Made by a program: the position numbers and the translations under genes
Shown: positions 55,000 through 57,942 of the stretch, piece after piece
Layout: each line of letters opens with the position of its first letter
How positions within the stretch are numbered: position 1 is the stretch's first letter
NCBI RefSeq assembly: GCF_003703975.1
Contig: NZ_QTJY01000018.1
Span: forward strand, 1 to 64,000
Reading direction: 5' to 3'
Length of the DNA stretch: 64,000 bases
DNA from: Larkinella soli
GTDB lineage: Bacteria; Bacteroidota; Bacteroidia; Cytophagales; Spirosomataceae
Notes under the pieces: generated by a model
Databases searched by the model: none
What the model was told of the DNA's origin: nothing
What the model saw: the letters and a program-made list of their open reading frames with translations, nothing else

Positions 55000-55470
55000 T
55001 TATTCAACCGTTAATTCCTCCGTACCGCTGGCTTTCAGTTTGGAGTTTTCTTCCTCCACCAGCCGGTTGATCTCCTTCATGACGTCGAAGAAGACCACGA
55101 GCTTATCGAGCGGGATATTCTCCCGGATGAGGTTATTGAACTGAATGACGCCCTCGCGGGCAATCTCCCGCTTCTTCTTGCCTTCGCTGGTCAGGAAAAT
55201 ACGAACGAACCGCTTGTCGTTTTCGTCGACCACCCGTTTGATCCAGCCCCGTTCTTCCAGGCTTTTCAGCATCCTGACCAGGCTGCGGGGCTCCATTCCC
55301 AGCAGGGGGCCGATCTTGGTAGCCGGGGTTCCCTGCTCCATGTCGATGTTCAGCAGAACGTAGCCGATTGCCATCGTCATGTCGTAGCGCGCTGCATAGG
55401 TGTTATACATGCGTGAAACGGCATGCCACCCCCACTTGATGTGAAAATCGACGGTTTTTTCCTTTTTCAT
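55000..55470 (-). CDS. MarR family transcriptional regulator
   Basis: A 156-residue regulator. The winged helix includes TPATKIGPLLGMEPRSLVRMLKSLEERGWIKRVVDENDKRFVRIFLTSEG (about 66-115), and dimerisation helices lie at both ends. The start ATG at 55470 is used; a longer frame to 55521 would run into the promoter. It heads the beta-oxidation operon. A TATGC-AA-GCATA palindrome overlaps its promoter and recurs twice before the acyl-CoA dehydrogenase gene, so I infer it represses both. An acyl-CoA or fatty acid is the likely effector, by analogy only. Confidence 0.9.
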   Translation of the reverse strand: MKKEKTVDFHIKWGWHAVSRMYNTYAARYDMTMAIGYVLLNIDMEQGTPATKIGPLLGMEPRSLVRMLKSLEERGWIKRVVDENDKRFVRIFLTSEGKKKREIAREGVIQFNNLIRENIPLDKLVVFFDVMKEINRLVEEENSKLKASGTEELTVE

Positions 55471-55614: not shown

Positions 55615-55651
55615 ACCTGCCGGCGATCCGCGGAAACGGTCACCGGCAGGT
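55615..55651 (-). terminator. Terminator of the peroxiredoxin-like gene
   Basis: ACCTGCCGG and CCGGCAGGT form the stem. On the minus strand TTTCTTTTTT follows, 35 bases past the stop at 55686. Confidence 0.8.
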
Positions 55652-55685
55652 CAAATGTAATAAAACCTGCTGAATATGGGTGGCC

Positions 55686-56333
55686 TCAGGCAGCCGAGCG
55701 GTCGTAGTAAGCCAGCACTTCCGTAGCGGAAGGCTGCTCCAGCCGCTCCAGGACTTCCCGGCGCGGAAAATCCTCCGTAAAATCCTTATCCACGTAGCTG
55801 AACAAAACCTCCCGGTTTTGCCCGACGACGAACAGACCCGGAAAGGGTACGTCTTCCGTGATTCCGGCAATACGGTTCCAGACCAGGTCGCTGGCCGAGT
55901 GAACACCGAACTGGTCGGCAATAAAGTTATCCGCGTCCTGGGCGATGGTGAACGGCAGGTCCTGCTGCTCGACCAGTGATTGCAGATGATCCACCGAATC
56001 CGGCGACAACACCAGCAGATTCGTACCGGCCTGGCGAAGGCGGGTGTAAAGCCGGGTCAGTTTCTGCAGATAGGGTTCGGCATAGCCGTTCCAGCCGGAG
56101 CTGTAGAAGGCCACGACCAACGGGCCGTTCACCAGCAGATCATGCAGGTGAATGGTGCCGGCCGAATCGGTCTGCCAGGTGATGTACTGCCATACGGCCA
56201 GCCGACGCGGCAGGTTGATCAGGGGCGCCTTGGCACCCGGCCGCAGCGGGGCGACGGAAACGGTTTTGCGGAAGATCTGAGGAACGGAGTACAGGTCGGT
56301 GTCCTCGGGAACGGTATCGAAATAAGGAGTCAT
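55686..56333 (-). CDS. Peroxiredoxin-like (AhpC/TSA) protein lacking cysteine
   Basis: A 215-residue protein with thioredoxin-fold features of the AhpC/TSA family: GAKAPLINLPRR, LLVNGPLVVAFYSSGWNGYAEPYLQKL near 65-92, LLVLSPDSVDHLQSL and PFTIAQDADNFIADQFGVHS. In active relatives the FYRGxWCPYC motif supplies the peroxidatic Cys; here it reads FYSSGWNGYA, and there is no Cys anywhere in the protein. It cannot be a thiol peroxidase. It may be a sensor, a chaperone-like fold or a remnant. A long leader with a Cys-rich upstream frame precedes it. Confidence 0.78.
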   Translation of the reverse strand: MTPYFDTVPEDTDLYSVPQIFRKTVSVAPLRPGAKAPLINLPRRLAVWQYITWQTDSAGTIHLHDLLVNGPLVVAFYSSGWNGYAEPYLQKLTRLYTRLRQAGTNLLVLSPDSVDHLQSLVEQQDLPFTIAQDADNFIADQFGVHSASDLVWNRIAGITEDVPFPGLFVVGQNREVLFSYVDKDFTEDFPRREVLERLEQPSATEVLAYYDRSAA

Positions 56334-56477
56334 GGCAGCAGGTTTTTAGAATGGCACGTATCGTGACTGAGCCTTAATCAAGCCGGGTTATGCCGGGCAA
56401 ACGGCCCATCGACGTTGCCGGGCCGGTATTCAGAAAAAAGTTAAGCAGATTGGGCAGGGTAATGAAGGGGCGGTGTC

Positions 56478-56588
56478 CTAATGGCACACCATATGCATTC
56501 GACAACAACACCGACCCGTAGAAGGAGGGGAGGTCTCTACAACCGGACGGCGCCGGCGGGGGGTCGTATGGCGATTGGTCAGATGCAT
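56478..56588 (-). CDS. Poly-cysteine upstream ORF (probable leader peptide)
   Basis: A 36-residue frame starts at ATG 56588, about 20 bases after the predicted transcription start, and ends at TAG 56478. Its C-terminal part is GRCCCRMHMVCH, encoded with three consecutive TGT codons. Poly-Cys upstream frames act as cysteine-responsive attenuators in mycobacteria. After the Cys codons a hairpin GGTGT-G-CC-ATTA-GG-ACACC covers the stop. A second GGTGT lies over the Cys codons and could compete for the same ACACC. The 144 bases that follow lead to the peroxiredoxin-like gene. Confidence 0.58.
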   Translation of the reverse strand: MHLTNRHTTPRRRRPVVETSPPSTGRCCCRMHMVCH

Positions 56589-56615
56589 TAATATACTATG
56601 TCAATAGATTATGTG

Positions 56616-56647
56616 CAAATATAGGCAACAGTTTAAATACGCTCCAA
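56616..56647 (-). promoter_or_regulatory. Bacteroidota-type promoter of the Cys-leader transcript
   Basis: On the minus strand TTG (56647-56645), 21 bases, TATATTTG (56623-56616). Predicted start near 56609, giving a leader of about 275 bases before the ATG at 56333. The rest of 56334-56667 is this leader; a T-run at about 56437-56432 (minus strand) lies between the upstream frame and the gene. Confidence 0.65.
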
Positions 56648-56667
56648 ATTTCTGAGCGTTAATTTTA

Positions 56668-57942
56668 TTATTTGGCAGGACGGTAGGCTACCGAAACCGG
56701 CTGAGCCGCGTCCGGTTCGGCCTCCCCGGCCTCGACGGTTTCCGGCCGGGTTTCCTCGATGGGCCGGACCATGCGGCCGATCAGAATGCTGGAAAGGATG
56801 ACCGCCATGGCCACATACCCCACCCAGGAGTAGTGGATGAGCTGCCCGCCCGGCGTTTTGCTGACGATCAGACCGGCCCCGTAGGTGGCGGCCGCCTGGG
56901 CCAGCAGCTGCACCGACGAGTTGATGCTCATGAACCCACCCCGGTGCTTCGGTTCCACGACGGAAGAAACCATGGCCTGGGTCGGAATCATGCGGCCATT
57001 GGAGAAAATGAAAAAGATGGCAGCCACGAACATGATGTAGGCAACACTGGCCGGCTCCATGGTAGTGATCAGGTAGATGGGCAGTACCGAGAGCAGGGCG
57101 AAAATCGCGAAAACCGGGTATTTACCGCGTTGATCCGCCAGCTTTCCGACCAGCGGGGCGCTGAAGATCGTCACCAGGCCGCCGGTCAGGTAGATCAGAT
57201 ACAGGTTGTTCTCACTCAGACCGACGTTGGCGACCATATAGGGGGAAAGCATCGGGATGATGCTGAAGTGGCCCAGCATGATGGTGGTCGTCAGCCAGAG
57301 CGCGCGAAGCTGGTTCGGATTGCGGGCAACGGCCGTCACCACTTCCAGCGGATTAAAGCGGACTTCCGCCCGCTGCAGGTGCTGGTCCAGTTTCGGTACG
57401 AACCGGACGATCAGGCCGATGACGACCAGGCCGAGGCCGCCCAGCACCAGAAACGGCGCATGCCAGCTGATCTCCGTAGCCAGATACAGCCCGGCCGGAA
57501 CACCCACGACGGAAGCCACCGAAAAGGCGCTCATGATGAGCGACATGGCCTGCCCCCGGCGCTCATACGGCACCACGTCGGCCACGATGGCCAGGACCTG
57601 CGCCCCCAGCACCCCTCCGAAAACTCCGGCGGTCGTGCGGGCCACGATCAGCCAGCCGAAGGTAGGGGCCAGACCGCAGGCGATGGTTCCGAGGACGAAG
57701 CCGAGGTAAGCCCAGAAAATCACTTTCTTCCGGTCGAACCGGTCGACGAAGAAGGCGGCCAGAAAACCGGAGATGCCGGCGCTGAGGCTGTAGGCGGATA
57801 CGATGAAGCTGAACTGCTGGGGACTGAGACTGAAAAACCGCATCAACTGAGGCCCCATCGGCATCATGATCATGAAGTCGATAATGTGGGTGAAGTTGAT
57901 GCAGGCAAGCACGAAAAGAAGCAATTTTTCCTGACGGGACAT
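56668..57942 (-). CDS. MFS transporter (DHA1-like)
   Basis: A 424-residue protein with 12 predicted helices. FTHIIDFMIMMPMGPQLMRFF starts helix 1, AFFVDRFDRKKVIFWAYLGF is the loop 2-3 motif, and GVFGGVLGAQVLAIVADVVPYERRGQAMS matches drug/arabinose-type DHA1 exporters. The C-terminal tail (about 35 residues, Glu/Pro/Ala rich) is cytoplasmic. The substrate is unknown. It starts 39 bases after the TlpA-like gene on the same strand, a likely operon. Confidence 0.88.
   Translation of the reverse strand: MSRQEKLLLFVLACINFTHIIDFMIMMPMGPQLMRFFSLSPQQFSFIVSAYSLSAGISGFLAAFFVDRFDRKKVIFWAYLGFVLGTIACGLAPTFGWLIVARTTAGVFGGVLGAQVLAIVADVVPYERRGQAMSLIMSAFSVASVVGVPAGLYLATEISWHAPFLVLGGLGLVVIGLIVRFVPKLDQHLQRAEVRFNPLEVVTAVARNPNQLRALWLTTTIMLGHFSIIPMLSPYMVANVGLSENNLYLIYLTGGLVTIFSAPLVGKLADQRGKYPVFAIFALLSVLPIYLITTMEPASVAYIMFVAAIFFIFSNGRMIPTQAMVSSVVEPKHRGGFMSINSSVQLLAQAAATYGAGLIVSKTPGGQLIHYSWVGYVAMAVILSSILIGRMVRPIEETRPETVEAGEAEPDAAQPVSVAYRPAK

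Follow-up and report, generated by a model that had tools for sequence, protein, structure and literature searches.

A conserved upstream frame with tandem Cys codons before a cysteine-free redoxin gene of Larkinella: a candidate cysteine-responsive leader peptide

Introduction

Does the short frame with tandem Cys codons that precedes a redoxin gene in Larkinella soli act as a leader peptide through which cysteine supply could control that gene? The question was raised by an earlier note, which had proposed a poly-cysteine attenuator at this locus of the window, that is, the whole 64,000-nt stretch of DNA that was analysed. Classical attenuators, including the trp, his and ilv leaders, encode a short leader peptide in which the codons of a single amino acid serve as the control. 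With respect to cysteine, the portions of PMC9031893 and PMC9094748 dealing with the polycysteine leaderless sORFs of mycobacteria (Canestrari et al. 2020) describe downstream control that depends on cysteine. In its relevant sections, the study of Seliverstov et al. 2005 (PMC1262725) described leader peptides with Cys runs and no conserved terminators in Actinobacteria, the cases being Mycobacterium, Propionibacterium cys operons and Bifidobacterium cbs, and suggested the involvement of Rho. A passage of PMC13236596 mentions cysteine biosynthesis genes as being under translation attenuation, and the abstract of PMC9373788, which makes no mention of Cys codons, reports a Sinorhizobium SAM-II riboswitch with a second downstream control. 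The earlier note knew of no equivalent in this clade; our search of the open-access literature likewise found no described Bacteroidota counterpart, which is weak evidence.

Results

Layout of the leader in the window

The features of the locus are given below in the order of transcription.

56644..56648, minus strand: -33 box TTTGG of a presumed Bacteroidota-type promoter, read from the sequence and invariant in 10/10 orthologous leaders
56616..56623, minus strand: -7 box TATATTTG, in which TA.ATTT is invariant in 10/10 leaders and the last G is kept in 9/10
56586..56607, minus strand: motif CTATTGACnnAGTATAnTAATG, whose end is the start codon of the upstream frame (uORF), present in 10/10 leaders
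56478..56588, minus strand: uORF of 36 codons plus stop, MHLTNRHTTPRRRRPVVETSPPSTGRCCCRMHMVCH, from the sequence and the alignment of ten leaders
56502..56510, minus strand: tandem Cys codons 27-29 (TGT TGT TGT), the proposed stalling site, from Cys conservation
56484..56486, minus strand: Cys codon 35 (TGC), close to the stop; Cys is among the final two residues in 10/10 leaders
56471..56491, minus strand: putative hairpin around the uORF stop codon, GGTGT/ACACC in the window, from covariation
56334..56477, minus strand: C-rich interval of 144 nt between the uORF stop and the redoxin start, a possible Rho entry region, from composition
55686..56333, minus strand: target gene of the AhpC-TSA/redoxin family, 215 aa, Cys-free (PF00578, E 1.8e-16)

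The boxes TTTGG and TATATTTG, which we take to form a Bacteroidota-type promoter, showed a spacing of 21 nt from TTTG to TATATTTG. Transcription was predicted to start a few nt past the -7 box, at about 56611; counted from this position to the redoxin start at 56333, the leader is about 275 nt long. The uORF ATG was found 27 nt from the -7 box, a spacing conserved among the leaders, and some 23 nt after the predicted start of transcription, indicating that the frame, unlike the mycobacterial case, is probably not leaderless. Rechecking of the coordinates bore out the canonical promoter, the 36-residue frame and the leader of about 275 bases claimed by the earlier note, and promoter and frame recurred in 10/10 leaders. 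The three tandem TGT codons were also confirmed, with one GGTGT overlapping them at 56512-56508, a second downstream at 56490-56486, and ACACC at 56476-56472, all on the minus strand. The end of an MFS gene lies upstream of the promoter, and a MarR-family regulator is encoded downstream of the redoxin gene (window 55000-55470, minus strand). An Rfam scan of the window yielded no match above gathering scores.

Conservation of the upstream frame

A redoxin orthologue was found in all eight other Larkinella genomes examined, with 60-62% identity (60% in L. knui), and in G048, a genome of another genus, with 49% identity. The ten leaders, comprising nine of Larkinella and that of G048, all carried the same promoter, the same motif and a frame of 33-37 codons before the redoxin orthologue. 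All ten frames began at the ATG inside CTATTGACnnAGTATAnTAATG; eight were 36 codons long, and those of G016 and G100 had 33 and 37 codons, respectively. Alignment of the leaders revealed that the first two adjacent Cys codons were kept in every case. The third was kept in eight and was replaced by Gln in G100 and by Trp in G108, and a Cys was one of the last two residues in all ten, its position shifting by one residue. The first Cys sat 10 codons before the stop in each frame and was encoded by TGT in seven leaders and by TGC in three. A uORF with tandem Cys codons close to the stop was present as CC in 10/10 leaders and as CCC in 8/10. The rest of the peptide mostly drifted; a pattern recurred at its C-terminus, often G-C-C-C-x4-M-[GC]-C. 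The reading frame was kept despite the differences in length, and the gap behind the stop varied from 143 to 150 nt within the genus.

Across the ten uORFs, pN (0.43) was lower than pS (0.57), and pN was below pS in 40 of 45 pairs. Among the seven 36-codon Larkinella sequences, the variable columns by codon position numbered 26, 24 and 30 of 35, showing little third-position excess; this would be expected if a few codons, and not the peptide, were under selection. The earlier note had held that lack of conservation of the Cys codons would speak against a leader peptide. The Cys pair was kept in all ten leaders, and frame, position and Cys codons were all conserved, which supports the claim of a Cys-codon leader peptide.

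Specificity of the upstream frame

A model of the promoter, the motif and the uORF start (R1, the first 76 positions) was built from these ten leaders. Among 222 genomes of the family, R1 matched all nine Larkinella genomes and G048 at E <= 6.3e-16, and the next best match had an E of 8.1e-4. Among 241 genomes drawn from the order, only the own genome scored well; four others passed E 0.001 (best 9.4e-5), and no uORF of a similar kind was found at them. When 20 weak matches and the four from the order were opened, no Cys frame beginning in the motif was found. Short CC frames near weak R1 matches in L134 and L291 (MSGCLSKCCSISDNSIL and MQCCIKGRR) were taken for chance. The narrow spread, with the uORF in 10/222 family genomes, was counted against the proposal.

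The own genome was then scanned over 324 kb, consisting of 13 stretches of 20 kb and the window, for frames of 8-60 codons whose ATG lies 18-61 nt past a TAnnTTTG box. The 98 boxes yielded 16 promoter-proximal short frames, and CC or CCC occurred only in the window's frame. The earlier note had suggested a search for CCCR-type frames in related genomes, to see whether they precede sulfur or redox genes. Frames with CC preceded the redoxin gene in ten leaders, but the same promoter test, applied to seven sulfur-gene stretches (three around cysH, three around the SAM riboswitches of the own genome and one around a metY-like gene of G048), gave 14 promoter-proximal short frames, none with CC, and no CC was found in any frame within 700 nt upstream of cysH in nine genomes. 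The CCC pattern occurred at 52 places in the own genome. The 28 inspected places contained no intergenic short ATG frame: 20 lay in stop-to-stop frames of fewer than 80 codons overlapping ORFs of at least 90 codons, and 8 lay in frames of 86-263 codons; the window's own place belongs to the other 24. Collectively, the comparative sequence results indicated that the lineage-specific, conserved Cys-codon leader peptide frame is real.

A second Cys frame behind the SAM riboswitch of metY

Eight genomes were queried in a comparison of metY leaders. In seven Larkinella loci and in G048, a SAM riboswitch was followed 7-9 nt later by a frame reading MxNIRCCMP or near to it. RCCMP was found in 7/8 metY loci, and G071 had RWCMP; wobble changes were seen in the codons (CGN TGY TGT ATG CCC), and the position of the stop was not fixed. 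The own-genome case lies at G000:C15:141750-141902 (L156, L281). Loci with both riboswitch and RCCMP uORF were L149-L155, L275-L280, L282, L283, L286, L289 and L290. RF00162 scored above its gathering score in 5/6 metY loci submitted to Rfam, the sixth (L157) being a contig-edge metY fragment that does not have this leader. This second frame, since it lies behind a riboswitch, falls outside the promoter-proximal frame test.

In the 222 family genomes, an ungapped pattern was found at 31 places in 30 genomes, compared with 4 in the reversed control. Twelve of the 30 with a locus carried, no more than 190 nt upstream, what a text match identified as a SAM-riboswitch core: eight Larkinella genomes, G048, G026, G018 and G120. 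The target was metY, with a MetX-like gene in G120. RF00162 was detected at the matching places of G000, G016, G043, G058, G048, G026, G018 and G108, and for G120, G082, G091 and G100 the riboswitch call is based on the text match. Among the 60 best-scored other SAM-riboswitch loci, a core could be recognised in 48, of which 8 had a short CC or C.C frame behind it; none of the eight frames contained RCCMP. At one SAM riboswitch of another family (L221, in G261), the short frame MTITSSKSTFQACCITRMR lies behind and may be a Cys uORF or chance.

It is conceivable, albeit on balance somewhat doubtful, that Larkinella and its near kin read cysteine and methionine supply by the ribosome at several sulfur genes, with a Cys leader and an operator-like motif at the redoxin gene, a SAM riboswitch and a Cys-Cys-Met leader in series at metY, and a like arrangement in three more genera. 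If this were true, an end-product riboswitch and a codon-based precursor sensor would act in series on one mRNA.

RNA structure and composition of the leader

The earlier note had proposed that the two GGTGT copies could pair alternatively with the same ACACC, so that stalling at the Cys codons would select between two structures. The nine Larkinella leaders showed no shared pairing of the Cys-codon segment with the 60 nt that follow the stop (mean z -0.12), and mutually exclusive helices involving the control codons were not found across the leaders. The window alone paired more strongly than shuffles there (z -3.4), with a partner other than ACACC. The two-GGTGT switch was rejected as a shared mechanism, the pairing being above shuffles in the window only, and is possible as a peculiarity of the window. 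What survived of the proposal is the GGTGT-ACACC pairing around the stop, which falls on a hairpin with compensatory changes in the relatives.

In this stop-codon hairpin (A2 columns 166-174 with 178-186), 64 of 81 cells were paired (79%), and sliding the partner by 1-3 columns reduced the pairing to 30-57%. Four of the nine pairs showed changes on both sides. The covariation score was reached by 1/500 shuffles and the number of double-change pairs by 88/500, values that overstate significance for related sequences and refer to a structure derived from the same alignment. The local fold (-9.4 kcal/mol, z -0.84) was not clearly better than that of shuffles. Judged from the aligned leaders, the stop-codon hairpin is the best-supported shared RNA feature. 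A 76-nt piece of the window with a long helix (-19 kcal/mol, z -0.65) folded no better than shuffles. A pairing from RNAalifold between TATTGAC in the 5' motif and GTCTATA before the redoxin start was rejected as evidence, because double changes are missing from it and part of the second partner is gone from the window.

A scan of window 55640-56700 gave no terminator-like site. A loose terminator rule was matched by 4/10 leaders, through the stop hairpin itself in G108 and G091 and elsewhere in G071 and G016. The gap behind the uORF stop of the window was C-rich (C 0.34, G 0.20). In comparison with 92 leaders drawn from the own and three related genomes, the C minus G value of the nine Larkinella gaps was reached by 0-11% of the comparison leaders, four of the nine exceeding all of them, and that of the 66-nt gap of G048 was reached by 33%. 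The gaps were not clearly unstructured: folding z against mononucleotide shuffles ranged from -2.9 to +1.3 and was negative in seven of ten. A C-rich, G-poor gap of this kind would fit Rho.

The conserved 5' motif and a possible DNA layer

The promoter together with the 5' motif was the most conserved part of the leader. CTATTGACnnAGTATAnTAATG was exact in 8/9 Larkinella genomes, and G100 showed three mismatches and one extra T. As a reasonable guess, CTATTGACnnAGTATAnTAATG is possibly a DNA operator, for which we suspect the Rrf2 type. Elsewhere, a rhodanese gene (L132) and two fatty-acid-hydroxylase-type genes (L139, L145) have a similar motif after the -7 box, the gene type of L139 being confirmed by Pfam. 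In these three loci, a motif like CTAT..AGTATAnTAAT stands directly behind the -7 box, and the genes are without a Cys uORF; perhaps they form one sulfur regulon. A second AT-rich motif, with the core ATAGTCTATAAACT, abuts the redoxin ATG in the eight other Larkinella genomes (L031-L038) and is absent from the window and G048. TAGACTATATAGATT, a partial reverse complement of this second motif, was found upstream of the uORF-less homologues L045, L055 and L057. Because part of it also lies upstream of redoxins without a uORF, the second motif is likelier a DNA site than an RNA pairing partner.

The redoxin and its relatives

The earlier note had called the downstream gene a redox-fold gene. The family assignment stood, with a Pfam AhpC-TSA match (PF00578) at E 1.8e-16 and 60.6 bits against a cut-off of 26, and the closest solved chain was an AhpC/TSA protein (E 9.4e-4). 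The protein nevertheless contains no Cys, as is true of all ten uORF-bearing orthologues, and the peroxidatic cysteine of AhpC/TSA peroxiredoxins is absent with it. Where some homologues have a CPC site (FYCPCWGAYAEP in L088), the window redoxin reads FYSSGWNGYAEP; homologues of other genera show, e.g., FYCPCWGAYAEP or FLSGGWNEYGLK at this place. A sulfur-sparing role for the Cys-free redoxin is possible; against it, Cys-free proteins are not rare among ORFs of 190-240 aa (8/48), and genera that do not have the uORF also contain Cys-free forms.

To examine the gene context, 20 wider stretches around homologues in other genera were used, of which 19 were counted, the ORF scan of L087 having recovered none. 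In 10/19 stretches, an Rrf2 regulator, metY (O-acetylhomoserine sulfhydrylase) or a methionine aminotransferase lay within three genes of the homologue, a raw count irrespective of how common such neighbours are. Rrf2 was found in L076, L079, L085 and L088, metY in L086, L091 and L093, and the aminotransferase in L084, L086, L092 and L095. Profiles confirmed Rrf2 in L076, L079 and L088, metY in L086 and the aminotransferase in L095, and the others were named by eye. The nearest specific NCBIfam model for the Rrf2 protein of L076 was CymR, below its cut-off; CymR is a cysteine regulator. These neighbours suggest a link between the redoxin family and sulfur amino acids. No role in cysteine synthesis is known for the redoxin gene, which was counted against the proposal. 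Two tandem redoxin homologues were observed in other genera (L077:4739-6077 and L080:6582-7962).

Discussion

We propose that the uORF is probably a cysteine-responsive leader peptide of the attenuator type; the case for sensing is built on the conserved codons, the gene context and precedent. The second Cys uORF before metY in Larkinella and G048 was counted in favour of this reading. In the proposed mechanism, the promoter would start an mRNA whose first frame, of 36 codons, has a run of two or three Cys codons and a last Cys at the stop. With Cys-tRNA charged, the ribosome would reach the stop codon, open the stop hairpin and be released, and the 144 nt of C-rich untranslated RNA that follow would then favour loss of the message through Rho or poor initiation at the redoxin gene. 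With Cys-tRNA in short supply, the ribosome would wait at codons 27-29; the hairpin downstream of it could then form, and more of the Cys-free redoxin would be expressed. Here we infer that the frame is transcribed and translated and that ribosomes stall at its Cys codons; the direction of the response, and Rho or initiation as the output, are likewise inferred. Rho-dependent, intrinsic and translational outputs, and either sign of the response, would all be compatible with the leaders; a hairpin that terminated transcription upon ribosome stalling would reverse the proposed direction.

Several other explanations were weighed against the same observations. The uORF might be translated and regulatory with the nascent Cys-rich peptide sensing a metal or an oxidant instead of Cys-tRNA charging, as the motif-like C-terminal pattern and the redoxin fold of the target would suggest. 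We consider this unlikely, since the third Cys is lost in two of ten leaders, the last Cys varies in position by one residue, the remaining positions drift, and sulfur amino acid genes lie near homologues. A similarly small likelihood attaches to a uORF without a sensing role, which would modulate translation of the mRNA or feed reinitiation at the redoxin gene. Such a role would not preserve Cys codons in 10/10 leaders, and the 144 nt from stop to start are long for reinitiation. In its favour, a passage of PMC4833913 proposes that leader genes raise downstream translation by reinitiation.

Control by a DNA-binding regulator of the Rrf2/CymR-like kind at CTATTGACnnAGTATAnTAATG, with the uORF incidental, would account for the motif, which together with the promoter is the most conserved part of the leader and has similar counterparts before the rhodanese gene and the two other genes without a Cys uORF; Rrf2 regulators near four homologues, one of them closest to CymR below the cut-off, point the same way. 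This regulator would leave unexplained why the Cys codons some 80 nt further downstream are conserved, and we regard it as the sole layer of control as improbable, even more so than the two explanations above; the two layers may coexist. That the frame arose by chance in an intergenic region, where short frames are common, is very improbable indeed in view of its conservation and specificity.

The cysteine-responsive leader peptide thus proposed resembles several known systems in part. Like the mycobacterial polycysteine sORFs, it has Cys codons in an uninterrupted row within a short upstream frame, and the cysteine-dependent downstream control that is reported for mycobacteria in parts of the cited work is here a proposal for Larkinella. 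It differs in phylum, in not being leaderless, in its Cys-free redoxin target and in its stop-codon hairpin. With the leaders of PMC1262725, as described in parts of that paper, it shares Cys-codon runs near the stop, the lack of a conserved terminator hairpin and a pyrimidine-rich gap suggesting Rho, whereas the genes and the phylum differ. The excess of C over G is common to the nine Larkinella leaders, whereas PMC1262725, in the part concerned, calls its own motifs not conserved. As in the trp, his and ilv attenuators, a short leader peptide holds control codons of a single amino acid; in contrast to these, the window leader is without a terminator-like site, and no shared mutually exclusive pairing was found. 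The target shares the Pfam AhpC-TSA domain with the AhpC/TSA-redoxin family, but the Larkinella protein is without cysteine.

Cysteine sensing by leader peptides is reported in mycobacteria and predicted in other Actinobacteria. A conserved Bacteroidota counterpart, acting on another target, would demonstrate that the sensing of cysteine by the ribosome has arisen or spread beyond the Actinobacteria. The leader is a small, testable system in a cultured genus, and its uORF would connect sulfur supply with a family of uncharacterised redoxins that are often Cys-free.
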